Shown here piece by piece: positions 25,499 to 61,600 of a stretch of 64,000 nucleotides of DNA. The stretch lies in the NCBI GenBank assembly GCA_030698625.1, contig JAUYMS010000050.1, positions 1 through 64,000 on the forward strand. The letters run 5' to 3'. The stretch is from Candidatus Omnitrophota bacterium (lineage in GTDB: Bacteria > Omnitrophota > Omnitrophia > Omnitrophales > Aquincolibacteriaceae). Position numbers and translations under genes: made by a program. Positions within the stretch are counted from its first letter, which is position 1, and every line of letters starts with the position of its first letter. The notes under the pieces are model-generated. The model was not told where the DNA came from. It made no database searches and saw only the letters and a program-made list of their open reading frames with translations.

Positions 25499-28400
25499 TT
25501 AGGCAGCGACGGCCAAACGGCGTACGGCTTGAATCATGGTCGTAACGTAGGTAATGACTTCTGCGGTATAGCCCTGGCGCTTCATTTCGATTTCGAGCTG
25601 AATAATCGTGCGTTTATTGAGCAGTGAGCCGCGGAGCAAGTCGGCCGTGATCAGCAGGGCCGTAGCCAGCGGGAGAACCTGCCCCTTATCGACGCGCGCC
25701 ACATTCGAATAACCCACGCGCTCCAGCTCATCGGATTCCCCGATCAATGCCGTTTCATCATTCTTATTCCGGCCTCCGGCGGCGCGGCGCACCTGCCTGA
25801 CGAGTTCGAGCGTACTCGAGCTTGCCAGCACTTCAAGATGGACCTGATCGGCAAGTTTTGCGGTCGCTCCGAGATTCGTCAAAGTCTGCCTCAATGCCGC
25901 GCCGAACTTGCGCTCGTCCGCATCCGTAGGCAGGAAAAGACTAAAACGATCTTGAGGATTAGCCATCAACATCACTGCCAGCAGGATCAAGGTGGTGTCA
26001 TCTTCGATCTCGGTGCCGGTCGGCGACTCTAAGAGATGAACGGCGCTATCGGTATGGCCTTCCAAAAGATCGGCAAACGGTCCGAGCGCCGCCTTCGCGG
26101 TATCCAGCACCAGGTTTGCTTTTTCACGATTTTCGAAAGCACTGCCGTTGATCGTTCGCAGCAACAAGGCCAGCGCTTCCAGTTCCGAAATATTGAGTTC
26201 ACCGGCCAGATTTTGCACTGTCTGATAAAGCCCGGCACTTTCTTCGGCAATCGCAACAAGCTGTGCGCTCAAGGCGACGGCCAGCACGACATTTGTCGTC
26301 AGTTGCTGTGCGCTGCGGTTCGCCGCAGCCGTCGAAACTCCTCGCGTCGCGTCAATAGGCCGCAATTGCGCCACCGGATTATCCGACCGCGAATCACGCA
26401 ATTCCGAGCGGCCGGCATCGCCTTCCAAAGTAGTCGTATCGCCTGCATTCGTTGCGGTATCGGCTTTCGGGTCCACGACATTCGTGCCTTCGGGTTGCTG
26501 AACGGTCAGCGTAATACCCGGTTTCAGATCTTCAATCCGGTGGAGAAGACCATAGGTAACAGCATCGTAAGCGGTTGCCGGCCTTCGAGGCAGCTTATCG
26601 GCGATCGCCTCGATTCGTTGCCTGAGAGGCTCATAAAGATCGGCTTTAAGTTGGGCCGACTCAGTCGCGTCGTATTCATTCACTCTACTGATGATCCTTT
26701 CGGCTACAGTCCGGCCGACCCGCGCTACCTCGGTAATCAAGGCCAGAAGTTCCGGTTTCTCGTCATCTTCGATGACCCGGTTCAAGCTCTGGCTGGCCGC
26801 ATAAAGAATATCAATTCCCGTATCCAGCGTTTGTCCGTGGGCCTCAAGCGCATTGCTGCGATGTTCTTCCGCAGTCAGGGAAGCGTCCAAGACGGTGTCT
26901 CTAAGATGCGATTGCAATCCGGCTTGCGTGGCCCAGCCATTCAGCCTCGAAAGCGCCGCGGCCCGAGTCTCCTTGGACGGATTTGTAATGTCGCGAATCG
27001 CCTCGTCATAATCAAAAGCACTCCGCAATTCGGAGCGCGTGGCGTCTTCTATGCCGCGCGTATCATCGGGGCTCACCGAGCTGCGCCGGTTGCCCGATTG
27101 AACGGAGACTTTCCCTGTGCCGTCTACATGCGCATTTCCGCCAAGATCACGAAGCACCCGGGCAACTTCTCTCGAGTTCGGTCGCACATACTCTGTTCTG
27201 TTACCGACCCGAATGGCAATCCTACCGCCTCCGGCTTTCCAACTCTGCGCGCGTAACTCGGAGCGTTGAAAACCACTGCGGATCGTGTCGGCAAGTTCCT
27301 TAAATCCGCCGTAACGGATCTGCTGAAAAACCTGCCGAATCACGTGATCCTGCAAACTGATATCTGCTTTAATACGCGCGAAGGCGGCTCCTTGAGACGG
27401 ATCCCCAAAGATGAGGCTATCGGTCACTTCGACACCTGCGGGTCGTCCCGAAAAAAGGATCAAACCTGTTTCAAAACCGTATGCGATGAGGCCTCCGACC
27501 ACGTTTCTATGAGCACCTGCGGAGGCTTGATCGATAATGGCTTGCTTCACTCCCAGCGCCGTCAAATCAGTAATAATTTCCTGGCTTTTACTTTTCTGTG
27601 CGGTGGCAATGAGGCTTTTGAGCTGACTAACTTCGCTGCGCTTATCGTTTTCGTTCGTGTAGACGAGAAGGTCCGGCTCATAGAGCGCGGCCGGATGATT
27701 CGGATCGGAGATAAAGGGATTCTTGAAAATTTTCTTCGTAAAAATGAAGACCCGGAAGTTCGCACCATCATAAGTGAGTAACAAATTGTAGGTGAATTTG
27801 CTGTTGGGCGTCAGCACAAGCGAGCCATCTTCGTTGGCTTGTGACAAAATCTTAATCACGCCTTCTGCTGTAGCTAGGGCGTCGGATCCTTCAACAACCA
27901 GGGTCGAGCGGAGCGGGAAACCTTGATTTTTCTTAAAGGCCTTATCATTGACTTGGGAGTACTTCACCCCTTTATCGTCAACGTGAAGTTCTTCAAGTGC
28001 ATCAGGCTGCGCCAAGGCTTTTTCAGCATTCGATTGCTTGAGATATCCCTGATAATGCAAATGCGGAATCGTGAAGCCGGAGAAAGCCACATTCAGAAAG
28101 TCACGAAAGCGAGTACGTTCCCCGGCCGGTACGTTGGTCTTGAGATTCAGAAGACGGCTCTCAATGTCTTCTACCTGAGCCACTTGCAATGCAATATGGT
28201 CGTGAACCGCATTCATGCTGTTTGGCTGATGCGGATAAGGATTGGCCTGTTCACGCCACAGCACGCCGTCAGGGCCTATATACGGAAGAAAGCGTTGAAG
28301 CGGAAAGTAATCGTCAATATAGGGGCGCGAAAGGATTGTCTCGGGTAGGCTTCCGATCGTACGCGTTGCGAATGTCCCGCCGCGCTTCGCACGGCCGGGG

Positions 28401-31400
28401 TTGTACTGGAAACCAAACTGATACTTGCCGTAATTGCGAACCACGGCGCCTTCCTTGATCCCGCGCACCACTTCTTCGCTGACCACTCCCGCGCCCAGCT
28501 GCTGCAGGAAAAGTAAGATTTTCGCGTCCTCGCGTGAAACATCGCCCCGTTCAAGTGCAGAAATAAGGAGTTCCACGGCCAGGTCATTCAAGTCGATGAA
28601 ACGGTCGACGGCTACCTTCAGCTGCTTAATGACTGCTTTCGCATCAACCCCATCAAAACCCGCGCTGGTCTTGAGGGCCTGCGAGAGGCGACCTTCAAAC
28701 AATCCAAACGTTAGTGTGCTATCATTCAGAATAATTTGATCATTAGTCCCCCGTCCGTTCTCATTCATGTAGATCTCACGCACTTTGCGCAGCACGTCAA
28801 AATAGGGCGCATTTTCATCGCCGAGATGCTTTGTAAAAAGGTCGCCTTTGCCGACTTGCGTAAGCCGGTTGATGACGGAAAAGAATTTGATCTGTTCGCG
28901 AATACTGCCCGCATTCGACCCGAAAATGGAGGGCACAGGCTCCACCCTGTTTTGGGTTACGACGCGAAGCTGATACTCGGTGTCCGGCAATGCAATAACC
29001 AACTTGGAGGTGTCGTCAACACTATCGTCAAGCTTCTCAAGATAGAGATCAAAACTGCGCTTGAAGCTCTGCGAGCCCCGCAGCTTTGCGACGGGCTTGT
29101 TCGGACCAATCACGTCATAAAGAGTATCCAAGCGTCTCGAGGACAAGCTGACACGCGGCGTAATCTCTGACGCAACTCCGGTTACCAAGAGTTCCTCATC
29201 CAAAGCCTTGAGCCCCAGATAGTCCACGAAAGCGCGTAGTGACGTATTCAAGAATTGCTCATGTCTTTCTGTGCGCAATTCGGAGCGGTCTAATCGAATA
29301 TCGTAGGGCCTGCTCAAGAGATCGCTTGTCACGTTCAGGACCCGGTAATTACTACGCGACGCGAGATGGCCTAATTTTGCCACAACGATCTTGACTGCCT
29401 GCTCATAAGTTAGTGGTTCGCCTGCAAAATCAAAAGGAGATTCAACGCTTGTAAATAGAACAGGATGCGGGCTATCCGCAGCCGGACCTACATCATCAAC
29501 GTTAACCTCCAGCACTACCGTATCACCCTGGCGTAGCACCACGTACCAACCCTCAAGACGGGCCTGCGCATACGGCGATGTGGGGTCATAAACTTCAACG
29601 CTTCTGTCACTGCGAACCAGTGCCAATGGTAAGAGAGAACTTAATAAGGCGCTTGTCTCAGCGCGATGCGCTGCCACGAGCTCCTGAAACCGCAATCCGG
29701 CACTCAGAGCCCTGCTGACGGGTTTCTCAAGGCGTGCTAGGCGAGCCTCCTCGGCGGCTCGGATGATCCCGTCAATGTCCGTTGCATTAAGAACTTTATG
29801 GGTCTGTCCCACGCGAATGATAACGACATATCCGTCCTCAGACGGTTCAATAGAAATAATATCTTTAAGATCGAGTTCCACGGCACCGGCGGTCTCGGCT
29901 TCTAGCGGGATAGGGTCGCCATCGATTGAAATTACAATGTTGCCGTCTACAATTCGGACGCTGCTGATAACCGCCCGAGGAATCTCACGGTTCCGGACAC
30001 GAAAAACGTCAGCATCTTCGAGCAGACTAAAATTCACACCGCGGCTGGACAGCGTGCTGTATCCGGCTCTCGCACCGAATGCCCTCACCGCGGCTTCGAC
30101 TTCTTCAACCGCCTCGATCCACTGAATGGCCTCGCCACTAAAATCGGAACGCACGCCAAAGTCTAAGGACAGAAGATTACCGGATCCTCCGTCGATTCGG
30201 CCATCGCTGATGCGCAGCGTCGCAAGAAGCATTTCGCCCTGCGGGAGGACTCCCTGCGTCAACCGTACCTCCAGCGCATCCATAACCGTTCTGCTCCTGT
30301 CATCCGGCTCAATCACACGCAAATGTCTCGACGGCTCCAGCAATCTCGAGGGAATGAAAGACTCCAGCAATTCGTGAAGCGGTTCCACGCCCTGCGGAAT
30401 TGAAAGAATCGAAGGGTGCGCCGCGCCCTTCAAGAAGTTAATGATGTCATCCACACTGCGTAATTCGGAGCGGGTTACGACCGTCAACTTGTGAAAACTG
30501 CCATCGAAATACTTAAAGTCAACTGTCTCAATCGTGCTTTTTCCGTAAACATAAGTGGTTCGGTTCGGTCCTAAAACCTGTGATAGCTTCTCAAAGCTCT
30601 CGGCAAACTGAGCTGCGAAAGCTCCGTCCTCGACAACCTTATCCCGGTTCACCCAAAGCTCAACTTCGCGCCGAGGCAAACCTGCGGCAACCAGTTCTGC
30701 CAAAAGATCGGGTTCGAACTGCAGGAACATCCATTTTCTATCTGTTTCTAAGACCTGACGAGCACGCTCTGCCAATTCCCCATCCTGAATTTTAGACAGG
30801 TCCGGGTAGCCGATCTTGGCAATAAAAGAAAACGATGTCTCGGTAATACTCTCCGCAGCATCCCCCGGCCCTTTACGGCCGACGGCGACGTAAATACCAT
30901 CGTCAATTTCTGAGCCGATGGCGCTATCCAGTACTCGAGTTTTTGCTGTATCCGGCGGAAATGTCTGATATTCCTCCATCGCGGCCAACGGCGTAATAAT
31001 GAGTGTGTCGTCGCCAGTAATATCAGATGCTATCTTCAGGCCCAATACATTAAGTGCGAAATGCGTCTCATCCCGCAATTCGGAGCGGAATTCCACCACA
31101 GATTTCCACGGAGCACTTTCATTGAGAGGGTGATCGAGAACTGCGGCAAGCGCTTTGCTGGCCACCTCTGGGTCGAGCGGTTTATCCGCTTCTTTACGAA
31201 AAATATCGGACAGCTCTTCAACTGTGGGGGTAACGCCGTTATCGATTTCACGATGTATCCAGCGGCTGAACAACTGAATGTCCTTCTCGTTCGCATCGGC
31301 CGGTGCGCCGAGTGCCGCCAAACGGTCGATGACATCCGGCAGTTGAATAATCCAACCCCGCAACTTACCGCTCTTGGCGATATCGTCGGCAGCAAAAGTC

Positions 31401-34400
31401 GGTAAATAAGCGATATGCCCTGCTGCCGCGCCTGAGAAAAAGTTTCGAATGTCTGTCGAGGAGGTCCCTAAAAGATTTACGTGGTCAAGCATGATGAAGC
31501 GGCCCTCATTATAGGCGGCCAGCAGATCCTCGGACTCTAACGGCAGCGGAAGCATTTCAAAAAATTCGCGAATGTTAAAGGTCGGGACCACGCTGACGAC
31601 TTCGATACCGGAGTCTACCAACAGTTGGGCATTCTCGGCTTTCCACTGCTCCCATTTAATCACAACGTCGCGTCGCGGATCCGCCCCGTCATAAGTAGGG
31701 ACATAATCCCCAGTCTTTTGGAGCTCTTTAAAATTAGGTGCGAAAATATGCGCGTGGTCACCGCTGGCAAGATAAAGAATCTTCAACTTGCCTCGGCGCC
31801 CAGCGTTTAAGGGGATGAATTTCTGTGTCTTGGACTCCCCGTCCAATTCGGATTGTTCCTCAATCGTGGAATACTCAATCAGGCCGCCCGAGAGCTCAAC
31901 GAACTTCCTAACGGTTTCCCGTCTTTCCGCGAATACCTGCGGCGATCCCGTACCCGCCTTACGGTAGTCCACGCCATGCAGGAAGAAACCCATCACATCC
32001 AATTTGTTCTGCGCCATCATGCGAAATGCCGGTTCGTACTGGCCCACATGAAGCGGATAGGCCATGGTGGCAATGATTCCAACGCTCACATCTCCGGTGT
32101 TTTCATTGTTCTCGGTAAAAGGCGGTACAAAATCGTATCCAAAATCGACTTTATCGTTTTCTCCTGCAGGAAGCTCATGCCACCGGAGCCGCTGCTTGCT
32201 CAGGTCATTGCTGATATCTCCGTTGAGAAAGTGAACGCCGATCTCCCACAAAGACTCCTGCAGCTTACGTTTGATCTCGCTCGCCATGGCCGCGTCTTCG
32301 GGAGAGCCGTCCTCTTTGATGTTGTCCAGGACAAGATTTTGGTAAACCGTCTCGATATTGACACGCTGTTTAGAACTCACGTCAGCGTCTACAGATCTTG
32401 CGTAGTCATATTCAACGATCCTGTTCTGCTCATGCGTGTCGGCGTTTAAAAGGTAGACAAAAGTGCGGGTCAGCATCTGATAAGGATTTCCCTTGGCATC
32501 AATCTCATTGACAAAGGCCCTTTCAAACACTATTTTCCGTTCGCCATCTTCGACAAGAAGCGCGGCGCCAAAAGTCACGATATCATCGCTGTCGTAAACC
32601 ACCACTGTCGGTATGGGACTTACTTGTTTCCCTAGAGCACTAAGATAGTCGGAGGCCACCGTCAGTTCGGGAAAGGACTCGACCGTCGGCGTCCCGTATT
32701 TCTTCAGCTGTTCGGCGATTTTCGTCTTTGTCTTCCGTTGATTGTAGGCGTTTCCGTTCAACACACCGTCGCGGTAGGCAACGCCCTTCGAGTCGAACCC
32801 GTATTCCATTTCGGCAAGGACGGCCTTGTGGTCACGCTGCAAGTCATTGCCTTCTTTATCCATGACCCATGGCGTCATTCCGTAACCCGAGAAGACGTGG
32901 CGCGTGTTGCCGCCTTTTTTGCCGTCGGTGAAGGTGCTTTCCAGTATAAAGTGCTCAAATGTGACGGTTCTCGCGGCTGCTGTCTTCGTAATCTTTAAGG
33001 CATCAAGTGTGTAGGAAAGCGCTTCACCCGGAATGGTCGGCAAGCCCGATTCTTGAAGGACCTTCGTGCTTTCACGTTCGAAGTTAGCGGCTGCGCGATC
33101 ATAGTTCGCCGCAATTAACGCATAACTCTTAGTATCGCTGCCTTGAAACTGCTCGAGGCCTTCGGGGAAAATGATTACGTTTTTGATATATCCGAGCTCG
33201 ACACCGAGAGCGGCAAGTTTATCGAGGGCATCCCTGGCATTTTCCCTATCCAAACTTGTGATCAATTGCGGTTCGAAGGGCGCCTTGCCGCTTTCGAGAA
33301 TAGCAACGATCACGTCGCGCGGGGTTGTGTTAGTGGTATATTTCTCCACAACACCTTTTAGATAAAAGGCGTCGGTCTGATACTTCCCATCGACCTTCAC
33401 GCCGGTACTGGCCCAGTAAACCTGCTGACTCAGAAGGTCCAGCGTATTACCGGTTAGGCTGTAATCCGAAAAGTGCCGAGCGACAAATGAATTCCACTCG
33501 CCATCCTTCTCAAAGTGCTGCTTCCAAATGCCGCCGATATTGGCTTGGGCGAAAGCCAAAGCCGCCTTCGTCGTGTTGACAACGCGCTCGGGACCGTTAA
33601 GACGTAATTCACGGAATAATGCGATTGCCTGTTGATAATCATCATCTGTTAATCGTTGATCCGCCGTAAGAAGCTGAAGTCTTCGATAGTTTGCGATCTG
33701 ATTCACCAGATGCGCATGTCGCTCACTCTGCGTGGATTGATCGAGTGAATCGCGCACCTTTTCAATATGGGCAATGATTGCATTAAAACTTTCATCCTCG
33801 AGCAAGGGAGCCACATTCCGGTCGTCACGACTGACGAAGTCACTCGAAACGCTCTGAGGAATTAGCCGAGCCAACTCATCGGCAGAAGTCTGTCCATTGG
33901 CTGTGATATACGATTCAACGAATCTCCTGACACCGTTCTTGTGCGCCACCACCGTCGCTTCGTACTGCTCGCCCGTTGCCACCAAGGTATAGTTGACGTT
34001 GTACCCCAAGGCTTGGAGCTCTTCACCGGCCTTCAAGCCAATGCTCGTCGCCGGAATCTTAAGGAAAATATTGCGCTGAGTCTCTTTGCCGCCGAGCAAG
34101 GCAATTTCTCTGCGAGTTGCCGCGAGTCTCTTTTGACCGGCCGCTACAATCGCCGCAACCAAGGCAGCTTCATCCGGGCCCTCCGCTGTCACAATCTCGG
34201 TCGGAAGTTCCGTGCTGACAAAACCGTGACGGCCCTGTGACTCTTCATATATAGGTAGGAGTGCGAGTGCTATCTTCGCCACAAAACTGTTGATGAGCTT
34301 TTCATAGGCGAGCTTGACGACTTCGCCCCGCTTGTCAGCCCCACGAAGCGCCGCAGTCTTTCTCAAGATATCCTCAATCGCTTCGGTTAGCGGATTCTTA

Positions 34401-37400
34401 CGGCCCGCAGCCTTGGCAAGCTTTTGAATCTCATCGATATAGTCAAAATTGCTGTTATTGTTGGTCGTCACGGAGTGAATAATGCGGTGCTTGATCAGGA
34501 GCGGCAACAATCCGCCGCGGCGCATATCGATTTCCTTCGGCTGATCCAGCGAAATCACATGTTTGAGCTCGGCCAACTGCCGCGCCCATTCCTCGACCTC
34601 TTCGGTCACCTCATACCGCAACTCAGACCTGTCGACATCTAGGTTCTGACTGACAAGCTCTCGTCTAAGGGCTTTGCGAGCCGCAAGATCATCGGCATTT
34701 TTAACACTAAATCTGTGTAGACCGATCACAAAAGCGATGACACCAGTAACAGTTAAAAATGCGGAAATCCCGGCAATCCAATAAGGCACGGTAAGTACGG
34801 CGCCCACGGCTGCACTCGCAATGCGCACGGCTGCCAGAAAACCGCTCAGCGGACCGATCACCGTCGGTATGCCTGCAAAAACCAGGAGTCTTGTTAAAAA
34901 TTCGGAACTCTTTTTTTCCTGGCGCTGCATAAGCTCTGTCAAATTCGTGTAAGTCTGCTCAGTCGCAAAGCCATCGAGAAAATGATTGAGCTGCTCGATT
35001 GCCTTCCTTACAAGAGCGGCCGTCTTTTCGGAATCGAAACCAAGCTGTTTAAAACGCTCTGCCACCTTAACCCTGTCGTCGGCCAAACGGGCCACTTCCA
35101 GATAGTGGGCGCGCGTCACATCCGTTAATCGACTCTTCGCCTCTGCCGGCACGTCACTGACCAGCGCATTACGCGTATAAAGATCGACAAGATCATTCAA
35201 AACATTGGCTTCACTGAAGTCGGGTGCAACCGCACTCCGCAATTCGGAGCGGACACCAAGGCTTGTAAGGGCGGCCTGGATGGCGGTGAAACGTTCTTGA
35301 CTGTCGCGATAACCTTGCTCATCCGTTCGTCTTGAACGCACATACATCGATTGAATGCTGTATTCTTCGGACAACAACCCCTGAAGCTCCTCAATCGCCG
35401 CTTGGCGTTCGGAAGTCAATGCTTTGCCAAGTGCTCGAATGGCGGCGAGCTTACTCTCGTGCCTCGACTCTTCTACCGCATTTACTGCCGGCACGGCCTC
35501 GTCCGTTGTAAGCTGTGTATCTAATGGAAGTAACCGGAATGCGGCTACAGCCAGCAGGCCGACAAAGAACGCTGCAAATAAGGCGGGGACAAGAATGGGG
35601 ACATGGGGTTCCGGCCGCGGCTGTGCGAACTGCTCGGGATCCGGCAGTCTCCGTAAATCATGCAGAAGATCTAACAATTCAGGATCAAAGTGTTGTAAGC
35701 CATCGACCGCGGTTTCGAGTCCCTCCTGATCAGGCGCCTCACTATTCGTTGCGGTCAAAAACAGTGTCAAGGGACTCTGAGGAATATGCTCCCCGTCGTT
35801 TGAAAACACCTGGGTGTCTCTAAAAGTGAGCATTGAATTAGGGTTGGCCTCCAAGAGACGCAGCACTTCGCTAGGCGACTTTATGAGCGCGAAATTAATG
35901 GGGCCGTTCGGGAAAAGCACCCCATTGTCACGGACGCTAAGCTCTACACCGGGAAACCGCCGTTCTGCCGAGCCGTCTATAAAACTTCGCACCACATTGA
36001 TTGCAATCCGGCGAGCTTCACCCACCGTCACTTCCCGCAATTCGGAGCGGCTGCGAGGACCGTAGAGAACCTGTGCGGCCCTGAGCATAAAGCGGTCCAG
36101 GCCTGAAAGCGGGCCAGCGGCGTAATGCCAGTAAGCGATCTGTGCCAGCCGATCGGAGTCACTGACACCCTGGGGCCGCGGTGTCTGCGGTCCATAAAGC
36201 ACCTTTGCGGCCGCGAGCATAAAGCTGTCCAACTTGCTCCGCAATTCGGAGCGGGCGGGAAGGTGTCCAACGACCACTTGCTCGCCGGTGCGGATAGCCT
36301 TTTCTCTTTGAGTTAAAAGATCTGAAAGTTCCCGCTGTCTGTCTGCGAGCGCATCAACCGCCGCACGATTTCTCGCGGCTTGGGCTTCTAATTCTGCCGG
36401 CGAAGTAATTAAATCTTCCGGTCTCAGGGAGATGCGGGGCTCATATACGGGCGCTTGGACAGGCTGGATCGGCTGATCGGGGTCATCGAAAAATTGTCCA
36501 CGCTCCACTAGGGGCCGGTCGAGTTTCAAAAGGGAGCTCGGTGATGTTGGCGGTAATGCGGGCTGCACGGCAAACCATGTCGCAAATAGCCCAACAGCTA
36601 GAAAGAGTAGTCCTGAGCCCGCCGTTCCGGCCAAAGTAAGTCGGTCTTGGTTCTCTTCGGAAAGACGCAGTTCCGAGCGCAAGAGACCGATCGATCTTAG
36701 GATTCGCTCGCGGCGAAGAATATCGGGATGCCTGCCGATTTCAACGTTACGCGAGGCGAAATCAGCTGCAAGATTCTTATTGAGCGGAAATGCGGCGGTC
36801 TTCTTTAAGAGTTCGGCGAATTTCGGGTTCTGCTCCAGAAGTGAGCGCTCCAGGATAAGCGGAATATTGCTTATGTGCCGGATGTAATTGTCACGTGCCG
36901 TCACATAGGGCTGTGCATCATTGGTGATCAGTGCCTCGCGGGCCGCATTGCGAATCTCTGCCTGCAGACGGTTGGTTTCATTAACGATATACCCGACTTC
37001 GCCGTCACCCACGGGATTTTCAAACAGGCTCACAGTGTCAAAGGTGTCCAGATCAATTTCTAAGGTTCTGCGGTCCCGAGCAGTCAATGTGTCTTTCACA
37101 TAAGAATTTATCCGATTGAGAATCTGTTGGAACACCGGACCGGCCACGTCATAGGTGGCCTTCTGTACGGATAGAATGGCAATGACCTCACCAACGGTGA
37201 TATCTACGTTGGCGCCTCTGCCGCTTCCGTCATCTTTAACCCAACGGTCCCGCATGGCGCGTCCGTCACCGGTTTCGTAAAGTTTGACGGGCTGATAATC
37301 CTCGGGGATGCGTTTACCCTCCTCATCCAATTCGAAGGTCCCGTCTTCCTTGAGTTTGTAGCGTAACGGCAGGTTAAGGCCAAGATTAGTGGCAATGATA

Positions 37401-40372: not shown

Positions 40373-40435
40373 AATCTCTTAAGAGAGAGCCCTTTATGAC
40401 TTAGTGAGATATTTTTAAAAGAAATTTGTTATGAA

Positions 40436-46600: not shown

Positions 46601-49600
46601 ACAAGCGCCAGCAGTCCGCCAAAGAATAATCCGCCCAAACTTCCTTTAGCAAAGGCAAGGGCCAGGCGCTGCGGCATCTCGCGCATACCGCGGTTCCAGT
46701 TGTCGATAATAACAGGGCCTTTACCCGTAAAGTTGGCGCGGTTCTTGGAGAATTTTTCCTGCGCCGCGGCATAAAAGGCCCCGATGACGGCGGCTTCACC
46801 ATTCATACGGGTGAAGAGGGTCTGGTACTTTCCGGAGATACGATAGATAGGCTGTCCCATCGTCGCCCAAGGATGCTCGGCCATTTCACGGGCACCGTAG
46901 CGCACCGAGAGATACGCGGGATTGTGCCTCTCAAGCAGCGATTGAAACTCCGCCCTCGAAACCTCGTAGTGATCGGCGATTTCCTGCCGAAGTCTTTCCA
47001 ACTCTGTCAGGTAGGGGTCCGCTTCACCGGGGTGATTCACCGCATGCGCCGCACCGGCGAGACGTGCCTCTTCGACGAACTCCGGATCGATCGTCGTCTC
47101 AAGAGCCAGCCTATCGGCCATCCAGACAATGGCCTCCTCTTCGAGCATCCCGGCAATGTTTTTGTCGTCGAGAATGTAATGGGCCCAGAGGCGGTCGGGG
47201 CTTTTCAGGTCGAGTTCGATTCTTTTTTCGTAGCCATAGACAACTTCAATGCCCTTGTACTGGGTGGCCCCCACGCCGATAAACTGCTCAAATCTGCCGC
47301 GGGCGGCAGTGCTGATATAAAGCTTCGGATGCCCTCTCTCGATGGCCGTGGTCTCGCCTTCCACATTTCTGAAACCCAAATGCGACAGGTCTCCGTAAAT
47401 AATTTCCTGAGTAGGCGTACTTATTTTCATTTCGGGCGAAACATGTAAGGTCCTCGGCACATCATCGCGGCCCTGTATGGACAAACTGAAATTATCATCC
47501 GGCACATTTTCGAGCGTTATCGAAACGGTACCGTCCCCTCGCGAGACAGACTTTCCAACGATCCCTTCATTCGTAGTGGTTCTGACAGCCGATGCCAGCC
47601 AGCGCACTTCGCGGTCAGCCTTACTACCGCTGACATCGAATTCTACGATGACGTTTGTTCCGTCGCGTCGTACTGTAACGGTCGCGCCGAAAGCAATATT
47701 ATGAAGGGTTCTGTCCACAGTGGCCGAGCCCAGGGGTATGGAAGTCACCGGCAACGTACCGCTATTGAAGGTAATCCCCGCGACATCCGCAACCACATTT
47801 CCAAGTTTATCCTTTTGAATCGCTTCACGGGTTGTCGTACCGGAAGTCCACATGAACCAGAAAGTGGTAATAGCGATAGTCGCAAGCGCGATTCCGATGG
47901 GAAGCGCTGCTCCCCAGCCGAGCCATAGGTTGGCGATACTGCCTATCACAAGCGCAAGCGCTCCGCGAAAACCGCCCTGCAGGAAGACTTTCCACTCCAA
48001 GTTCCGTCTCACGCCCGTCTCACCGGTCTCTTCGGGGATAATCTTACCTTCGCCGAGCAGCCTCATCGCCTCTGTGAAGCGGTAAAGTTTGCGGCCGTCG
48101 TTTTCTTCGGCGAGGGCTATCGGATCAGCGGTTTTAAAGTAGACTGTGCGCCGCTTCTGCCCGAAGCGCTCCACTGAAGTTGTGTGCATAGCATGCATTT
48201 TGACTACCTGATCAAGGATCTCATCATCTTTTTCCAGATCCGGCGGATCCTGGTTTTTGGGATTGGGTTTCGGATCCCCGGTTTGGTGCATGATAAGCGG
48301 AATATTAAAGCCCGGATTGGCGCGGGCACTCTTTTCGAGGTTTCCGACAATACCGGTCGAGGCCTCGAAGCTTTCGTCGGCCTTCTGGGCACCGAGATAA
48401 CCGAAATTCTTGCCCGTATTCATGGTAATAATGTAAATGGACATCTGTGAGCCGTCCGGAACGCCGTCCCTCTGCTTGGCCTCGTCATCCATCATATCGA
48501 AGGTCAGGACTCGGCGCCTTTGTCTCAGCCCGGCGCTGAGCACTTCCAGACGGGCTCGTAAGAGATGTAATTCCTTATCGCTCAACGATTGAACCACGGT
48601 GCGAAAAGCCGGGCTGCCGACCAAAGCACTGATGGAACTGACGGCCGTACCCGAAAGGCGGGCCACCTCCGCCAGTACATGACGGTAATGGTCTTTCGAT
48701 GAGTGAATCACGATATCCACGAACTCCTCGGCAGTCATTGCCGGATAATCATGAAGAGGAGCAGCGCCGGCTCTGAGTTCCGAGCGGCCGGCCTCATAAC
48801 GCGGGCGGGCATCTTCGGCAAATTTATAGCCTCTGTTATCCACAAGTTCGTCGTAGACCTGACCCAAGGCCACGTCAATGATATCTGCTTCAGCACCGGC
48901 CAGCGTATGTTCTTCGGCAGCTTCGGCCGCAGTCAGATCTTCATTACCGGTGACACGGCGCGGCTTCTGAGTAATGAGACGGTCCTGGATGATATGACCG
49001 GTCGTAATACCCAGATAAGTAAAGGCTGTGATCATGAGTACCGACCAAAAGGCGGCGGACGTTCCCATAAGGTGGGCATAAGCGTAGTGATAACCCATGA
49101 GTCCGGCGAAGCCAAACACCTTGGTGAAGTACCAGCCGTTTGAAAAATCAAGCGGCAGAAACCCCTTGGAGACGGCCTCACCCGGTTCCGGCAACCGTTC
49201 CTTACTGACCTTCATAATGTAGTAGGCTGCGTATATCGAGGAAGAAACGAATGCCGCGACAATTCCGAGCCACGGACCAAATCCCATGGCACTAAGCGCA
49301 GTCAAAATAATCCCGGTCACAATTGCAGAACCCACAAAGGCATCGCCGTTATCATAGATGATCTGTTTAAGAAGACTGCGTTCGCTCTCGCGTACATTGC
49401 GCTCACGGACCATGCGAACCGTGAAGTAGAGCGCCGCGCCCGCCAAGGCAACGGCAACACCGATAAGAGGATTCAGACCCAGGGCAATAGGCGCGGCCAT
49501 CGCACCCGCCGCACTGCTGATTCCCACGACGCTGGCTTCCCGCTTGTGCTCAAAGACGCCCCTCTGTGCGGCCAGGCGGTCCGAAATGATCTTATCTCCG

Positions 49601-52600
49601 ACGTATCGAACCGTGCGGTCCTTGCGCTGTCTAAAACCGATATAGTGTGCCCATACCGTATAAAGCCCGAGTGCAAGCGCAAAGATCAGAACCATCCAAT
49701 GTGCAATCTCCCAGGCGCGCGAGCGTTCGGTGATGGACCTGTCTTCCTCGATTTCGCTGAATGCCCTGCTGACGGCTTCACGATTACTCCAATCCGTTTT
49801 CTGATCTTCTAAAGTCTTCTGCACGAACCGTTGCTGCGTGGCATCGTCACCCAAGTCCGAGGCCAACATCTCCTCAACCAAGCGCTTCCTCTTCTTGTAT
49901 TCTTCCGACCTTTCATATTCGGTCTTCACCCTCGGTTCGATCAGATTGAACTGGTCCAGACCGACGCGGCTGATACGGCTGATCAGCGCCAGCATCTCTT
50001 CGATAACGCCGTCCTGAGTGTCGTCGCGTTCAATCCCGGCCGCTTTCCATGCCGCCCGAATCTTGGCGAGATCGTTGAAAACACGCTTCACCTCAACCGG
50101 CATCATCGACTGATCCGTCAAAACCTGTGCCCAGCGGTCGCGGCCGCCGATTACCGTGCCGTCAGCCAGGGTCCGGGGCTTATCGACAATTGTGTTCTCC
50201 AAACCATAGGCCTTAATCCAGGCATCAATAAGTTGCGAGGGCGCGAGAAGGCGTCCGCGATCATCACGGTCATTCTCATCGAGCTGCACTTTGGCATCGT
50301 CGGCTTCCAGAAAGACATCCACAAAATATCGAGTCAGCGTGTCCTCGACGCCGAGGATCTTATGAAGTTCCCCGTTGATCCGCTGTTCGGTGATGAAGCT
50401 AAGCGTCGCTTCCACGTCCAGGAAGTGATCGAATTCGCGCCGCACTTCTTCAACGATCGTATCGGTATCGAGCAGAATCGCTTTAATGACCCGCTTCAAG
50501 ACGCGCTGATATTCGGGATCCGACGGCGGCGGGAAGCGGCCGCTCTTCGCCATGTTGGCTTCCAACAGGGCAACCCACGCGGCATAATCACCGGTAAGCG
50601 AATTCGGCAGAGTAATATTATCGACCTTGTCCGCCTCAAGCGTCTGAATGAATTTGACCACATCGGTCTGTTGATCCTCCGCGTATGTCAAAAAGCGGCG
50701 GTCGCGGCGGGTCAGGAGCCTCAAAATAATATAATCATCGCGGCTATCCGCATTTTCGAACATATTGTCAGTCAGCGGCAGGCGGCCGCCCTGCGCAATC
50801 GTGCGGACTTCTTCGCTGATTTCATGCCCCATAAAAGTGAGGTTCTTGAAGTTTACTTTACGCTGTTCCTGAACGCTCATGCCCGGCACTTGAAAGCGGG
50901 GCTGCGCTAAGCTCCTGTAAACTCCGCGCCAGTAGGTCATCGAGCTATCGTCCATGATGCGGAGCAATTGGCGCTGACCGTGCCAACGCACGAAGGCCAT
51001 CGTCTCGTTCTCCGCATTCATCGCTAAGTGATAGCGGTTCACGTTACTGTCGCGGGGTAAGACATACTGCATGGTCATACGCATGCGCCAAGCGGGAATC
51101 AGGTTTGCTGGAATCGGATCATCTGAGAACCAGGAGGTCGCATGATTTAAGAGTTTGGAAAGACCGCCGCGAAGCGGGAAAACGCTTTCTTCGTAATACA
51201 TGCCCGGCGAAAAATACCAGTAGATCAAGTTATCCACATACAGGTTCCGGTCAAGGTACGGTCCGCCGGTACGGTCGGCGGCGGGCGGATTCACCCACCT
51301 CTGAAATTGTGCCGTCATCTTAAAGAAATCTTCGTACTCGGCAGGGGTACGCTGTAAGCGCTCCAAGAAGGACACTTCGGCCGAGGTCATCGCCATGATG
51401 TAACCGGGTTTACGCCAATAGTTTTCGTACAGCGTCCAGATGACTTTTTTGCGCTCAATCCGCTGGACGACTTCGTCGACGGAGATATTTTCGTTTTTTT
51501 CCAGCATGAGATCGAACCACCAGCTCGCAAGACCCATCAATTGATATTGGTCAAAAACGCGCTGATAGATCGCACGATTTGCCTCACTGTCTTCAAAGTC
51601 ATAGCCCTCACTCCTGAGCTTGAGGAGGAATTGGTTAAACTTGTACTTGGAGATCGGATCGCGGTTCTCATACTTGATCGGATAAGCGACTAATGCCTTC
51701 AAGATTCGGTCAAAGTCGCTAAGCCAGGTGGAGACATCGCCGCCGTGCGTATCCCGCATGTTTGAAAAACCAGCAAGCATGTTCACGAGAAAAACGGTTT
51801 CAAACTTCTCCTGCTCTCTTTGCAGATTGAATTCGCCCGCGTTGTTCGGATCGGCAAATACGGGGACTTTAGCGTCCTCCTGGAGAAAGCGCAGATCGCG
51901 GTACCGGCCCATCTGTGACAGGAGATACATCTTTTCTCGGAGTTCATAGTAATTTTCGGCCGGCTGAGCGATTGTGGTCGTCCGGCCGTTGGCGTTCGAA
52001 AGGTCGAGCTCTTCGGGCTTCACAACAGGTATCCGGGTAAATTTCAATTGCGAGAAGAGTTCGCGAAGTCCTTTTTTTACTTCTTCCGGTGAACCATAAT
52101 GGGTAATCAAAGCCTCCAAGGTCCGAACCGAAGTTTCAAGTTTCACCCGGAGCGCAGCCCTTTCATAACGGGCAAAGAAGGAGATCTGACCAGTCAGCTC
52201 GTAGAATATTTGGATCTGGTTGGGGTCGGCCTGTTCGCCCTTCGCCTGTTTGACGACTTCGGCAAAGCTTCGCGTCAACTCCGCGCGATAGTCCGTTACA
52301 ATACCGAGCCGTGTCAAATAGTCCTTAAAATCAGCGCCGTCAATGAGGTAAACGTAACTGTCGAAGAGGCCTTTTGCCTCGCGGCTGTCCCAGCCGAGCT
52401 GTTCCTTTTCGGTCACCCAGTTGACCAGGAAGCCGAGATCGACCGGATTATTGATGATGTCTAATTTGCGGCCCGGTTGTTGCGTCAACAGCTCCAGGAT
52501 TTTCGAGACCTCGGCTTGAATGGCAGGGTCGCCTGCCTTGGTCAAAATGTCATGCCGACGCTTGATTTCATTTTCCCAATGGGCTCCGCGCTCCGCCGGC

Positions 52601-55600
52601 GCAATATTGTGCCACCTGTTGCGCGAACCGATATCGCCCTGATCGCGGCCGATCAATCCCACCATGTAGGCGAGTTCCCCGTTCAACCAGCTCATCGCAT
52701 GACGGTTGGCAAAGCTCATATCCCTGCCGGTTAGTTGTTTGTAGAGCGCGCCGAGTTTTGATTTGGTCAAGGCCGGGTCGGCAGCGTCGCGGCCGATAAA
52801 TGCAGGCGCAATGCGCGTCATCTCATCAATCTTATCAAGGATGAGCTTTCTTGTTTCATCCCCGATTTGCTTATTGGGATCCCCGCTCTGATACGAGATT
52901 GCAATGGCCTCGGCCAACCCATATAAGACGCCGCGATCCTGAGCGCGGTCCAAATTGGCAGGGCGGTCATAAATCACACTGATAAATCTTGAGACTTTGT
53001 CCTTAAATTCTTCAATGAGTAGCACCTCGGCCATCATATCGGCTCGGCCGCCCATCTTGACATAGCCGCCTCTTTCCAGAACCGTACGGCCCCAGCCGAT
53101 GACCGAACCCTGAATCGCCGCGGACTCCGGCATACGCCGACCATAATCGGCGAGTTCGGTTTCTGCCGCGAGCTTTTTGGCGGCATCGGCACTATCCAAA
53201 TCAGAATGCTGACCGTTCATGGCCAAATCCAGAATAAAGGCATCACGAATGATGCGCAATCGCGTAGCGTCATTGGTGAGCATCACCGTCAAATCCTTAC
53301 TCCAGGACTCAATCTTTCTGTCCGCCGGAGGCAGATTCAAAGATTCCATATAGCTCGGCTCACTGATCTGCGCATAGGTCCAAGCCATAAAGAAGGCCTG
53401 CGCTTCGCCTTCGTTTTTCAGCACGGCGTCACGCGTAAGTTTCGGAAACTTGGCCTGATCCCGCAGAAGCGCGCGGTAAAGGGCATCCGCGTCGGTGAGC
53501 GCCAGGTCCACGTTTGCCGGTACAGAGATATATTCACGAATGTGCTTGGCTTCATCCACCCAGGTTGTCCAGCCTTTCGCGGCACCCTGCTGTAGGAATA
53601 CGATAAGGCGGCCGCGGGAATCTTCGTCCATACTCTCGATATTCCGGCCGCTGATGGCGGGGTAAGTACCGCCGAGACCTGTGGCAACTGCCTGCCAGAA
53701 ATCATTGGCCTCTCTGGCCGCAGGCTCGAGTCCCACGGTCGCAATAAGTTCAGCGACGCGTTTGCCGCGGCCGCTTTCCTGCGGGGTCCCGAAATCGAAT
53801 TTTGACTGCACCAGGCCACGCGTCCAACTCTCCACCCAGCCACGTGCGTTCCCGTCAAAAGCGAGACTCTGGCGAAAGCGGTTGAGCTGCTGATAAAAGG
53901 GATCATTCGTATCATCCTTATTTACAGGCGCAATAGGAAACCGGGTCGTATCACCCTTCAACCCCTGAATCACGTAAAAGGTATCGAGAACATGATCAAA
54001 CTTGGTCAGGGTCAACCGGTTTGTGCGTACGAAGGCCTCGACGAATGCGGTCGCCGCGGCATCCATCGGCATATTCCTGCGGAATTGTTCCAACTGTTGA
54101 TTAAACGGGTCTGCAGGATCAGTCAGATTCTCTGCATTGGCTTCCCGTGAGGGAAACCGGGCCTCATCGGCCTTGCGGCGCTGCCATTCACGAAAGGCTT
54201 CGCGTACGACATCGACTCCGTCAACACTGGGCGGCGCCTTGACCGTATCGCGGGAAACCACGATCGTCATACGCGAACTGATAGTCGACCCGGCCGTAAG
54301 CGCATCGCGGTTCGTCGCCAATGCGTTCACGTTATCCGGCAAACGATCGACATCCGCCTGAGTGAAAACATTCGCCGTAAGGTCTAAACCGGGCGGTACC
54401 CCGTTAAAACTGTAAACCAGTCCATCGAGGGGAGCCGACTGGGCGCCCATCGTCATGGTCACGTCCGGCACGCGGTATTTCCGCCACTGCATCTGTGCGG
54501 GGTCGCGGTTCGCCTGTCCGACGATGATTTGTGTGAGATCGGTATTCTCGGGATGCAACCTCTGGGTCGTCGGATCAGCCGGATTGGTAAGATCAATGCG
54601 GGTGGAACGGATCTGCCCGTCTGCTCGATGCGAACCCAGTACGGTATCACTGTCATGAAAGCCCAATTGCGGGCCGTTGGCGCGGCGCGTCATGCTAGTT
54701 GCAAAACCGACGAGGCCCACTTCATGCGCGGCGACATCTCGTCTTATGAAGTACTCTTGTGTCGCCTCAATGTTCATCGTCGCTTCGCCCTCACTCCAAC
54801 CCCGGTCATTAAAGGTGATCTTGAGTTCAATGACACCTGTAAACTTCTCATTCTCGATATCCAACGTTAGGACGACAACATCAGAATTCGGTTGCGCCTG
54901 TATATTCGCATTGACGATTCTCGGAAACGACTCGGGGCCGCTCGTAGTGCCCTGCAATCCAAAGCGAAGCGTACCGCCCATATCGGTCTTCGGAACCATC
55001 GGACGCAGGTAAACACCGTCGGCCATGATCACGAAACGCGTCGGCGTTTCACCGGTAAAGGTATTGCGGCGACGATACTCGATACCCGCCACACCCGTCG
55101 TTTGCGTAAGTTCGGGAACATCGGCGAGGTTCTTCACCTGAAAGGGCGTCCCATTGGCGCTGGCCGCCATCACGTTCCTATGGCCTACCTGACCATGCGG
55201 CAGATAGCGGATCGACTGATTGGCATCGACTACCTGGACGATGCCGAGAGCGGCCTCATTCTCTCGAATAAGCGTCTGGTACTTGTGCTGATCGGTGGTG
55301 GGGGCGGCCAATGTCCCGCCCGGCTGATAATCACCGCGTGACCGGTTCCTGGCTCTTTGCCGAAACGCATTGTAGGATGAACCAGGCCCTGCGCCAGCCG
55401 GAGCCCCTACCTGCCCCATTGTCTGTGTCGCAACCGCCGCCAAATTGGGAAAGGGTCCGGCACGAGCAACCACAACTCCGAGTGCTAGCATTGCCACCAG
55501 TAGAATAGTTCTGCCAAGGCTCAGCAGACTTTTTGCTGCTGCCTTAAGAATATTGCCGTCACGGAGCTCGGAGCGTGCCGCACCGGGAGCAGCACCCGGG

Positions 55601-58600
55601 ACAATAGGCTTAAAGTCCTCGGCATGCGCCTTCTTGATCACTTCCATCAGGACATTCCAATATAAAGAATGATATGCCGTGTTATCCGTAAACTTCGCCT
55701 TGAACTTCTCAAAACGCGCCAGCACGCCCAGCTTCCGCATCATCTCAGTCTCTTTTGCCGAATCAATAGTTCTAGTGCTCAGCAGATCCACGAGTTCGGC
55801 ATGCTTGGTCAATTCGCCGAAGAGCTTCTGGTCGAAAATCATAAGATCCCTGAAAAATGTCGAACGCACCGCCTCGGCGGAAATAAAACCGAGCCCCACC
55901 GGGACATCGGGTCTCAAATAAATCAATCCCCAGTCCGCGATATGCTTCTCCTCGATTTTTCCTGTAGATATATTCGTGAACGACAGCTTGTATTTCGCGT
56001 CCGCGCCCTTCTTCTGGTCATCAACAATCATTCGGATAAGGGCATTGCGGTTTTCGTCGGCAGTGTAGTCTTCCATATAAGCACGTACACGATCCTCCAA
56101 AATCGCCCCGGTTGAACCGCGCAGCGTGTAGCGGAAGAGATCGGACTGCAGACGCCCCTGGTCTTCAGGGCTCAGGTTCCGTTCGCTTGTATTTGCGGGA
56201 ACACTCGGCCGGACCGGCTCAAGCTGATTGAGGATATTGCTGAGTTCGATTGTCCGATCGAGGAGGCTTTGTGGCTGATTCGGGACATTTGCAATGAACT
56301 CCATCTTAGCGCGCAGGACATTCTGGACATACTTCTTGACGGCGCCCGCGATGGTGTCTTTGGCGGTCTCAGTGACTTCCGCATGAATCAATGCGTCTTC
56401 AGCCGTCGTAAGCAGGATTCCCATAAGGAACGATGAGTTTTCAATGAGTTTCACCAACTGTCTGTCAGAGACGCGTAAGGTCCCATCTCTGAGCGGCTCG
56501 AAGAGCCATCTCTTATCGCGCTGGCCGACTTTGCTCCAGTCACGCATGTCCCCTTGACGCCACAAGGCATATTGGCGTACGGCATCATAATTCTTGAGCT
56601 CCGCCGCCGCTAAGATGATCTGGATAATGCTGTCTGCGTCATAACCCTTGGCCACGAGGTCGTCCATGATCTTGGTGACGATCCCCTGATCGATCCACTC
56701 CGGATCGGAAAGAAGTATCGGCCTCGGACTTCCGGGCTCAGTGAAGAAGATTTCGATCGGGCTTGTCGGCAGGTCACGGTTTGTACGATGAGTCAGTGCT
56801 TTAACCACACGCAGGCGCGTCTGCAGACTGGGCCCCTGAGTCAAAACTCCCGGGTCATCGTCTTTAATCGGAATACCGTTAGTCCGTGCGTAAGCCATCC
56901 AGGGCATGCGCACGTTCACATCGTAATCGAGCGCCATCTGTGAAGTCCACTGCGCGATGTCGGCCGCATATTGTGCCAGCAAAGCGTTCGGCGCTAAGGC
57001 CAAATCAAACTCGAAGTCAGCTGCATTCGATTTGGCCGGCAGACTGCCGCTCTGCAGTTGTGTGGCTGCTGCACCCGCAAGCTCCTGATATCCGCGGCCG
57101 CTCCGTTCCGTAATAGACAACATCATCTGGACCTTGAGATTAATATGACGGTGAAACGCATACGGCAGGGTTCCGCGATTGACCATCTTGTTGGCCCAGA
57201 GGAGAAATTCGCGGATCTTGGCGCGATCCATGGTTACCTGACCTTTGCCGTTGGGACCGCGGTTGATCGCAAAAAAGTCTTTCGCGTTACCGTTCAGAAA
57301 AAGGTAATAATAACCGGGGCTTCCGTCGGCCAATTCAAAGAACTCTTTCCCATAAGTCCATTCGTAAACCTCGCGAAACTCCTTCTCAAGATCCATTTGC
57401 AGCCGGTAATCTTTGCCGAGCGCTTCCAAGTTGTTGGCATAGTAATGCGAGCGGAACGAAAAGTTGAAGAGCATTTTACTCAATTGGTCCAGGGCAGGCA
57501 CCACGACCTGGTCCGTATCGAGCGCTACATTGCGCGGCAGCGATTGTGGGTTGGCAATGACGAACCATCCCGTCGAGCGGTCCAACTTAGGATCCTTCTG
57601 CCCGATTTCGGCCAGTTGACCGCGCAGTTTTGCCATCGCCTGAGACTGGCGAGCCGCAACTTCCGGTGTGCCATGGCTGATCTCGCGGAAAAACTGAGTC
57701 GTCTGCATAATGCGGGTCACTGTAGTTGCTCCCGGTCTGCGGCCTGCAGCGATATCTTTACGGTCCAGCTCGTTCCGTTTTCTCTGCCAGTCGGCTAATG
57801 TGACTTCCGTCAACGAGGATGTGTCCTGAGCATAAACGCTAATGGAGGGATCAATTGTATAGATTCCGGCTGACGGTTTTGCCTGAGTGCGAGGGTTAAG
57901 CGGCACCCCGACAAAACGGCCCTTTGCCGTCGGCAGTTGGACCAGCTGCAGTCTTTCGCTCAAACTCGCAATCGCGGAGCGGAAATTCACCGCATGCGTC
58001 GTGAGAACTTCATGTGGATTCTGCGGAATATAAAAGGCCAAAGCATACATTGCCTCGGTCCCCGGCAGGATATGAGGTGCGCGCCCGGAGTAAGCGCTGC
58101 CCAATTCGTGATCAATCACCAGGGCATTGGCCCCTTCAAGGCGTCCGTAGAGGTCGAAATCGAATGACGGGTGAATCATGCGTGAAGCAACCACGAGTCG
58201 TGCCTCCTGCAATAAGAAATAGCGAAGAGACCTCTCCACGTTGGCGTGCGCCGTCGTAGGATATTTAAACCGCGTTGCCATGCTCAACATCGCCTTTGTC
58301 TGGGCCGTATTCAGATTAGCCGTATAGGCTGTATGGGCGCCGGATATATCCCACCACGGAACCAGGTCGGCGATAAGGCGGTCATCTTCGATCGACCCGA
58401 TCTTGGGAACAATGGCCGCGGCTGAGATATCGATATTTCCAAGTGCTATATCTGCCACCGAAAGGTGAAGGGCATAACCAAACTGAGTGAGGCGGCTAAA
58501 CCTCACACCCGGGTTTTGGACATACCACTGACCGTTAAGAAGGCCCTCTAGGTCGTCATTATCCATATCGCTCAGGTTGACTTCGCGAGATCTCTCACGG

Positions 58601-61600
58601 TTGAGCAAAACCGAATCGCTCACCAGGGAAAGCCGCGTTCTTGCGACTGTCATGTTTGCAATGAGACGGTTTAAAAACGTGATCCTCAATGCGCGGTGCT
58701 CCGGCAGATCACTGTCAATTCTCATGATCTTTGTCAGCCTTTTCCAGAACTGCTGCTGCGTGTCGACTTCGTCTGTGATATTCTTCGTGGCGTCGTTGGT
58801 ATGAAAAGCCGTATATTTGAGCGCCGAAGCCGGTAGCAATTCGGTACGGCGTAGTACCACTGGATCGCTCGTACTTTGGTAAGAAAGCGCCGTCGGAAAG
58901 CCAAACTGTTTCTGCCCGGGAGCTTTTATCGCTCCCCACCGGCTTAGCAGTCTACGCCACAGGTTGATTTCGATGAGATCCTGATCCGTCAGCCCCGCAT
59001 GGGCAACATGGCTTATTTTATAGGGCTGATTCCCTCGCCCCGGACGCGAGGTCTGCTGCACGGTCTCGCTGCGCACAGCCACGTCCACACCGGGTACAAC
59101 CAGCTCACGCCGGCCGTCATTTCTGGCCAGGAGCGCCGGATCAATCTCGGCAATACCCGGAGGCACAATCACTAAGGGACGCGCCATTGGCGCCATTCCG
59201 TCACCCGGAGCGGGTACCACGGCACGCGGCTTCGGCGCCTCCACGGGCGCGACCGGCTTCTTCTCTACAGGTTTAACCGGTATAACCACCTTCGGGGCAT
59301 CGGGAGCTTCACCGGGTTCAACCGGCTGAACAACACGCGCCGGCTCGCTGGGTTCGGGTGCCGCAGGCTCACGCCCCAGGCGGTTGACAATGAAAGTCTT
59401 CAGCGCCAGCACGGCAACCAGGACGCCGACAATCGCGAGACGGCGAACGAGGAACCGCTTCCTATCGGCACTCGGAAACTGCTGCTCATAAAGGAAATAC
59501 TTAAAAATGGTAAGGATAACGGCAACAGGCAGCATGACAACGGACAGACCGGCAAAAGCAAAGCCTCCAATACTGATATGGAGAACGCCCAAAACAGCCA
59601 CGGCAACAGCCAGCCAGTAGACAACTGTAAAAAAGCCGGCAGCAATACGCTCAGGCAATGGCGGCATTTCAGGGAGCATCGGAATCTCGTCGCCACCCGT
59701 AGCAACCGTTTCACTCGCTGCCGCGAGATCAGCCAAAGTATCATCGGCCTCATCCGCTCCGGCAGGCGTTTCCACGCCGGAGATGCGGTCTGTCCTATTG
59801 ATAATGAGACTTTCCATTCTTGTAAACCGTTCAACAAAGCCGGGACGGAGAGGTACGCGGCCGTTGAGCGTCAACAACTTTTTCATTCGCTCGGCTTCCG
59901 CCAGAAATTGTCTCGCTTTGTCCAAATACTCTCTCATATCGCTTGCGCGAATGAATGTCTGAAGTTGCGTGTGGAGTTTCTTAAGGACATATGCGTCGAC
60001 CCCGCCTTCAAGTGACATGATGACCGACAATGCGGCCGTAAGGCCGTGGTCCGCAATTCCTTCCACAATAGGCCTGATATCAAGCTCCGCTTTCACCAAG
60101 CCGCGATAGCCGTTCCACATGGACGTTTCTTGATTTGACTCCATGGCCGTACGAGTGGCTGTGCGGAGATTCCTCGCGGTGGCGATGATATGACTATCAA
60201 CGCGATTGCGCATGCCGGCAGAGCTTTCGAGAGAGCGTGTGTCACCAAAATGAGTCAGCAGCTCGTCATAAACCACTAGCAATGCCCGTATGTAAAGGAA
60301 TGTATCGATCGCTTCGGAAAGATCACGTATGCGCGTCGAGGTCCGTTTCCCGAACGCTTCCTTAAAACGACTTTCAATCGTCAACTTTAACTCCCCTAGC
60401 AGTTTCCTCTTGCCTGCATCATCGTCAGGAATTGTCACACCGGCATCACGGGGCAATAATTTGACTGCCGGAGCAATGGTTGTTGCGGGAGCTTCGATAA
60501 CGCTATCGGCACCGGATTCACTGTCGGCAGTCACGACATCCGCCGTAACCGCAGCCGCATCTCCTGCGCGCGTTTCCGGCAATGTCGGTATCACCGCTGC
60601 GAGACGCTTCATTTTTTCCGTAATACGCGGAACCGTAGTACTCGTAATCTCCCCAACAAACGAATCGACACCGGCAAGGGCCGCTTCCACTTCGGGAAGC
60701 TTTCCGCCCGCGATGAATCCGAATTGATGGCTGTCCGCCACATCGGCCTTCAACTTCTGCATGGCGTGATCAGCCGCATCGACTGCCGCGAGCATCGCCG
60801 GAGTTAACTCCGGAACGGCTTCGGCGGCTTCGGCGCGTGTCATGCCGTTATTCAGGATAAGATCGACGGTCTCTTCAATGGTTCCGGCGGCTTCATCCAG
60901 GTCGAGACGGATGTCCTGGGCCGCCGCACGAACTTGGTTGAGTTCATAGGCACGTCCCAGGTTCTGAAAGCTCGCGGCAGCATCTGCCATGCCGCTGACG
61001 ACGCTTCGACGCAACGCCTCCAACGGAGACATCTCACTCTCGGTGCGAAGCTCGGAGCGTGCGGCGTCCTTCACGTGTTGGCGCCAATGATACATATAGG
61101 CTCCTTGATATTCCCGTTTGCTGGACAAGCGCTTCACGAACTCAGCAAGCGCGGCATCATAAGATGCCTGGTTATTCTGCCATGCCAGCAATTGCCCGGG
61201 GTTATCGACCAACATCACACTCTGGAAGGCCTTGTCTTGAATCTGTTTAAGGATGACATCATCCGTGTCGTTCTCACGGATCTTGATAATTTGTCGCACA
61301 ACTTCAATCGCCTCACGCGTTACGACCGCGGTCTCCTGATCCTTCTGCGGGTCGAAGGTAAGCATCAAGAGGCCGTTGACGAGGCCCTGAAGTTCCGGAT
61401 CTTCACCATAGGCTTTAATGGAAACATCCTTGGGTAATTCGATTGCGTCTCCAAAAAGGGCAGGATAGAATTTTGGGGTCAGGGCAATGGCAGCTTCCAC
61501 TGAAGGCCGTAATTCAGTATTGGTCATAACTGCGATGATGTGATTGGTACGCTTAAGCTCTAGCCCAAGATTCGCTTTCGTCCCCAATTCACGCTGATCG

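Follow-up and report, generated by a model that had tools for sequence, protein, structure and literature searches.

Giant bacterial genes are currently regarded as encoding single enormous proteins of unclear purpose. Viral polyproteins, such as coronavirus pp1ab and HIV Gag-Pol, carry many proteins in one frame, with a short sequence at most of the joints. Multi-core precursors of ribosomally synthesized and post-translationally modified peptides (RiPPs) of the cyanobactin type have repeated pentapeptide recognition sequences between their units, which are served by a dedicated protease. Within Omnitrophota, a giant open reading frame (ORF) of 39,678 amino acids (aa) from Velamenicoccus is given in passages of PMC10066038, and ORFs of up to ~85,800 aa from Planctomycetes-Verrucomicrobia-Chlamydiae (PVC) lineages in passages of PMC12057145. 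Here we analyzed a 64,000-nucleotide stretch (the window) from a Candidatus Omnitrophota bacterium (GCA_030698625.1, contig JAUYMS010000050.1, positions 1 to 64,000), in which an invariant pentapeptide, RSELR, punctuates two giant ORFs, denoted A and B.

The giants that carry this tag resemble viral polyproteins in having many proteins per frame, a short sequence at most joints and a proposed processing. They differ in lying in a cellular bacterial genome, in numbering dozens, in their payload of ordinary enzymes and in their exact tag, with cleavage being predicted and the protease a candidate. What they share with RiPP precursors is a conserved sequence of about five residues that recurs between the units, but a RiPP unit is a peptide only a few residues long, whereas a unit of the giants is a whole protein with hundreds of residues, and the arrangement is found genome-wide in unrelated giants. 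The published Omnitrophota giants belong to the same phylum and are likewise very long ORFs with little annotation and with signal peptide or transmembrane (TM) segments; in the passages that deal with them, each is taken to be one surface or predatory protein, and no junction tag, no tag variants between lineages (dialects) and no common N-terminal (head) domain are mentioned. The original prediction, which was made from the window, offered no described role for RSELR. A literature search likewise found no description of the tag, its dialects or Omnitrophota polyproteins, with coverage incomplete and priority uncertain. We know of no bacterial polyprotein system of this kind. The mechanism proposed for the tagged giants would be that of viral polyproteins.

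Seventeen in-frame copies of RSELR were indeed present in the window, 12 in ORF A and five in the in-window part of ORF B, both on the minus strand; the composition of the two ORFs would give 0.014 and 0.013 copies, respectively. RxExR pentapeptides other than RSELR were absent from ORFs A and B, and, as had been noted, no copy of RSELR occurs in ORF C or in the housekeeping ORFs. When the whole genome was searched with a CGN/TCN-coded RSELR pattern, 218 matches were obtained (14 with the reversed control), which form clusters confined to a single strand in each region. From ~360 kb of RSELR-clustered regions we took a set of 18 giant ORFs (109,325 aa). In this set RSELR was observed 150 times against 0.32 expected, and its pooled one-residue variants 13 times against 19 expected. 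Chance or composition as the origin of RSELR, one of the outcomes named as a refutation of the original prediction, is ruled out by these counts and by the reversed control.

The codon variety of the copies in the window is as first described, with leucine encoded by TTG, CTC, CTT, CTG and TTA, serine by TCC, TCG and TCT, and arginine also by AGG and AGA. Among the 150 copies there are 118 distinct 15-mers, with a mean pairwise difference of 4.15 of 15 nucleotides, all synonymous. Since a single peptide is kept under 118 spellings, and its neighbours show no excess, RSELR bears the signature of strict selection at the protein level, as predicted. The serine codon is TCN in 97% of the copies (59% in the background) and the first arginine codon is CGC in 56% (33% in the background), with the leucine and last arginine codons closer to background usage. 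The TCN bias may arise because serine was never lost in descending copies, given that the change from TCN to AGY passes via another residue. When the flanks of the 150 copies were clustered, 136 clusters were obtained upstream and 137 downstream, with few copies in duplicated segments, which rules out the amplification of a single segment. RSELR occurs 155 times in all; 150 occurrences are in the frame of a giant, and the other five (other frames or short ORFs) are near chance. The residues around the tag are weakly conserved at the protein level (P, Q or D before it; S, T or A and then D or E after it), the flanks are linker-like, and the spacing is irregular, from 9 to 3310 aa. Doubled tags 9-11 aa apart were seen in L080 (the C13 giant) and L088 (C27), and read RSELREAGTAMRSELR (twice, with the same spacer) and RSELRPGAARSELR.

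The position of the tags relative to Pfam domains was analyzed with 71 tags from nine ORFs. None of them lay inside a domain (6.1 expected, P=0.0015), which bears out the earlier impression that the copies sit between domains. In all seven single-copy cases of UDP-glucose dehydrogenase with an intact start, from seven genera, the enzyme starts 4-23 aa past a tag. In this genome it begins about 5 aa after RSELR; in the six other genera a tag of the local dialect lies 8-23 aa upstream of the giant-embedded enzyme, and the upstream neighbours are unrelated. In five genera, the end of a second, tandem type of UDP-glucose dehydrogenase coincides with a tag, and PPDK_N ends 1 aa before RSELR in this genome. 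In a relative that uses RSEAR (genome G062), a triosephosphate isomerase at 1181-1441, with its catalytic residues kept, has RSEAR on either side (1169 and 1446), and in G060 RSEAR is found between the end of a circularly permuted triosephosphate isomerase and an enolase-like N-terminus. Tags of the form [GA]ARL[AS] bracket methyltransferases and CheR in G189. Circular permutation of enzymes in giants was observed for the G060 triosephosphate isomerase (L171, contig C43), and in L069 of this genome (aa 5417-5885) a phosphoenolpyruvate (PEP)-utiliser domain precedes the PPDK N-domain, which is the permuted order.

Twin-arginine translocation (Tat) signal peptides work only at the N-terminus of a protein. 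Four of the five Tat signals in this genome begin 7-15 aa after RSELR, and of eight pooled signals five lie within 15 aa of a tag, where the expectation is 7% within 40 aa. TM or signal segments in general follow the tag in 9 of 150 cases (~4.6 expected); the enrichment is modest, and the Tat subset is its informative part. Single ORFs contain several independent proteins: triosephosphate isomerase, UDP-glucose dehydrogenase, an enolase N-terminus, PPDK, transaldolase, methyltransferases and Tat signals. A sortase/PEP-CTERM sorting signal, a single motif close to the C-terminus with a TM segment and a basic tail behind it, was discarded as a candidate, given the many internal copies and the presence of a TM segment within 60 aa of merely 12 of the 150.

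The search in related genomes suggested by the original prediction revealed that the tag is specific to a genus or family, with other, unrelated pentapeptides in its place in related families. Few genomes of the phylum have RSELR in abundance; others, but not this one, are rich in R[SA]E[V/M/I]R, and the form of the tag varies by genus as R[SA]E[L/V/M/A/I/T]R. Unbiased k-mer counts in the giants of the relatives gave RSELR/RAELR/HSELR in G034, RSELR/RSEQR/RSELH in G050, RSEAR in G062, RSEVR in G103 and RSEMR in G001 and G020. Families f4 and f8 use [AG]xSLG (A.SLG in G042, 18 copies against 0.36 expected) and family f20 uses [GA]ARL[AS] (GARLA in G189, 33 against 0.25 expected). The one-substitution neighbours of GARLA in G189 number 10 against 10.8 expected, so that this tag is all-or-none, like RSELR. 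The giants with [AG]xSLG and [GA]ARL[AS] share the head domain, and their first tag copy is located just past it. In G031, tags of an unrelated dialect lie between repeated domains. A homologous junction reads LLKWQ-RSEPR in G000, SKWQQ-AASLG in G097 and YRWEIRS-RSELR in G050. The sole trait common to the dialects is that position 2 is often a small residue and position 4 often leucine. KYPT of G080 was considered as a fourth code and rejected, being a tandem-repeat domain instead; its units, KYPTxxAT...GG(D/N), are found in a giant of 13,298 aa that has the head domain (L209, contig C59). A giant of G229 (L227, contig C26) is rich in short repeats (TDxSGAAP, LTQTHLAT, RLTLRDI) and has no known tag.

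Tagged giants with a visible start begin with a signal peptide followed by a conserved head domain of ~550 aa. Of 285 Omnitrophota genomes, 145 have this domain, which opens ORFs of ~520 to 35,113 aa; the largest is in G048 (contig C37, ~80000-185144, minus strand), with its sequence partly N. The invariants of the head are H100, E132-G133, E391, F490-Y491, R497 and G520-G521-F522-H523; H100, E132 and H523 are invariant in 22 sequences, and D/E98 is mostly kept. The TIKI superfamily, whose 2His/2Glu active site is defined in PMC6254334, includes ChaN, RRSP and PMT-C, and in RRSP the TIKI domain acts as a site-specific endopeptidase (PMC6254334). Sequence-profile searches of the head with Pfam, NCBIfam and PDB gave nothing convincing. 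The ChaN profile PF04187 matched six giants below threshold (best 25.5 bits, with a cut-off of 27.7), and in all three giants inspected the match was located in the head domain. When a poor AlphaFold model of the head was compared with the PDB, ChaN ranked first (E 0.11, probability 0.51), with RRSP and PMT-C also in the list. The H...E...GGFH arrangement, the ChaN matches and the top fold match suggest that the head is likely related to the TIKI superfamily (TraB, ChaN, erythromycin esterase, RRSP, PMT-C), from which it differs by a large helical insert. As a hypothesis, the head domain would then be the candidate protease of the giants. No head domain was found in the phage and plasmid collections searched. 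A head-domain ORF of 2116 aa (L208, 1537-7884, plus strand, in IMGVR_UViG_3300045144_000334) lies beside ParB/DNA-methylase-like and terminase-like genes; no known tag dialect was seen in the part of it that was read. Given these phage-like neighbours, the head domain may also be carried by phages of these bacteria.

We conclude that RSELR is an exact, selected and lineage-specific peptide at the module joints of giants. That it is the processing site of bacterial polyproteins, where cleavage is predicted, is a reading that we consider moderately probable on the sequence data. Each giant would comprise, in one frame, a signal peptide, the head and a string of ordinary proteins (enzymes, regulators and secreted proteins). 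A dedicated endopeptidase would recognize the five-residue tag and cut at the joint, probably near the last arginine because small residues (S, T or A) and then acidic ones come next, and the signal peptides of the separate proteins so released could then come into use. All tags of a genome would drift or switch together, along with the specificity of the protease. More speculatively, the TIKI/ChaN-like head at the front of the giant could be the cutting protease. Such self-processing polyproteins, in which the head cuts lineage-specific tags and head specificity and tags have co-evolved into the RSELR, AxSLG and GARLA codes, are a tentative proposal that we hold to be doubtful at present. If the chains are cut at the tags, certain bacterial proteins that rank among the longest predicted may never exist whole, and proteins would be made jointly and then released, a gene organization known mainly from viruses. 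The tag also provides a simple rule by which giants that otherwise defy annotation can be divided into real proteins, and the codes of the different families form a natural series in which to follow the joint change of a protease and hundreds of its sites.

Several observations weigh against processing. In G189 an NTP_transf domain and a glycosyltransferase share one segment with no tag between them, tandem UDP-glucose dehydrogenases also lack a tag between them, many segments match no known family, and a few tags are separated by merely 9-11 aa. Samples of families f10, f14, f23, f41, f50 and f56 include head-bearing giants with no detectable tag. As to the head itself, no sequence profile reaches its cut-off, and the model has a predicted local distance difference test (pLDDT) score of 40 (two sequences usable, low confidence). 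Most enzymes checked have stand-alone copies too, and therefore the need for release is unproven; most genomes also carry a stand-alone triosephosphate isomerase, and the idea that the bracketed enzyme is the sole copy was rejected.

The original prediction proposed a protease site, a docking tag or the scar of an in-frame joining process akin to palindromic elements; the protease site fits best and the scar is disfavoured. As a docking or anchoring tag, RSELR would remain in an intact chain and bind a receptor (scaffold, surface layer, chaperone or export factor), so that the modules are spaced on a surface fibre. Such a role would suit a brief, invariant motif that lies between linker-like flanks and recurs throughout proteins that look exported, with a signal peptide at the front, and the passages of PMC10066038 regard Omnitrophota giants as surface proteins. 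However, Tat signals and complete enzymes start directly past the tags, which suits separate proteins rather than an intact chain, and the spacing is irregular; we regard docking as unlikely. A co-translational separation or pausing signal read in the ribosome tunnel (2A-like, or an arrest peptide) would also account for peptide-level selection at module boundaries and would free the downstream N-termini. The 2A peptides need ~18 residues, ending in NPGP. Here just five residues and weak flanks are conserved, and RSELR, AxSLG and GARLA have few features in common for a ribosome to recognize, which makes such a signal quite improbable.

At the DNA level, a mobile or recombination element inserted in frame could leave 15 bp that code for RSELR, much as Rickettsia palindromic elements (RPE) place a short repeat inside many ORFs, and the bias for TCN and CGC codons would be expected under descent by copying. 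The TCN bias is equally expected if serine was never lost. Unlike RPE, RSELR is found in one frame only, with the peptide rather than the DNA conserved. The 118 spellings, the 150 of 155 occurrences in the giant frame with no enrichment in other frames or beyond the giant ORFs, the absence of decayed one-substitution relics, and flank conservation that is weak and solely at the protein level, with the DNA unconserved beyond the codons, led us to reject a palindromic or mobile element inserted in frame. Unrelated peptides occupy equivalent junctions in related families, and we hold a DNA scar to be very improbable. A neutral or structural linker multiplied through segment duplication could explain the few copies in duplicated segments, but not the 136 and 137 flank clusters, and the one-substitution variants that it should have left are not in excess; we give it hardly any credence. 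Processing at the tag remains the reading that we favour.

Table 1. Positions of ORFs, domains and RSELR copies in the 64,000-nucleotide window
Feature	Position	Strand	Remarks
ORF A	25499..40372	-	4957 aa giant; signal peptide, head domain and segments delimited by 12 RSELR
Signal-peptide-like N-terminal segment of A	40232..40330	-	from sequence
Head domain of A, ~aa 70-545	38738..40165	-	likely remotely TIKI/ChaN-like
RSELR, A aa 715	38216..38230	-	first tag past head; Tat-like signal next
Tat-signal-like stretch of A, SRRELFRRAGDAAKLAVAAKVAAAITFVG	38087..38200	-	begins 10 aa past tag start
RSELR, A aa 1232	36665..36679	-	hydrophobic segment next
RSELR, A aa 1374	36239..36253	-	
RSELR, A aa 1442	36035..36049	-	
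RSELR, A aa 1708	35237..35251	-	
RSELR, A aa 1915	34616..34630	-	precedes transaldolase segment; first Arg AGG
Transaldolase/F6P aldolase domain PF00923, A aa 1988-2206	33755..34411	-	between tags
RSELR, A aa 3096	31073..31087	-	
RSELR, A aa 3301	30458..30472	-	
RSELR, A aa 3696	29273..29287	-	
RSELR, A aa 4370	27251..27265	-	
RSELR, A aa 4446	27023..27037	-	
RSELR, A aa 4655	26396..26410	-	
ORF B, in-window part	40684..64000	-	5 RSELR in window
RSELR in B	61045..61059	-	
RSELR in B	55561..55575	-	signal/TM-like segment next (ILLVAMLALGVVV)
RSELR in B	48772..48786	-	last Arg AGA
RSELR in B	42820..42834	-	
RSELR in B	41419..41433	-	
ORF C	2-16675	-	5558+ aa

ORF B extends past the end of the window; the whole ORF (contig C44, 40687-79830) is 13,048 aa long, starts with a signal peptide and the start of a head domain, and has 12 RSELR in total. 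ORF C, which is absent from the results of the head-domain search, represents another type of giant; it has a signal peptide and ~34 repeat copies around ALGSLSWDGKSLS.

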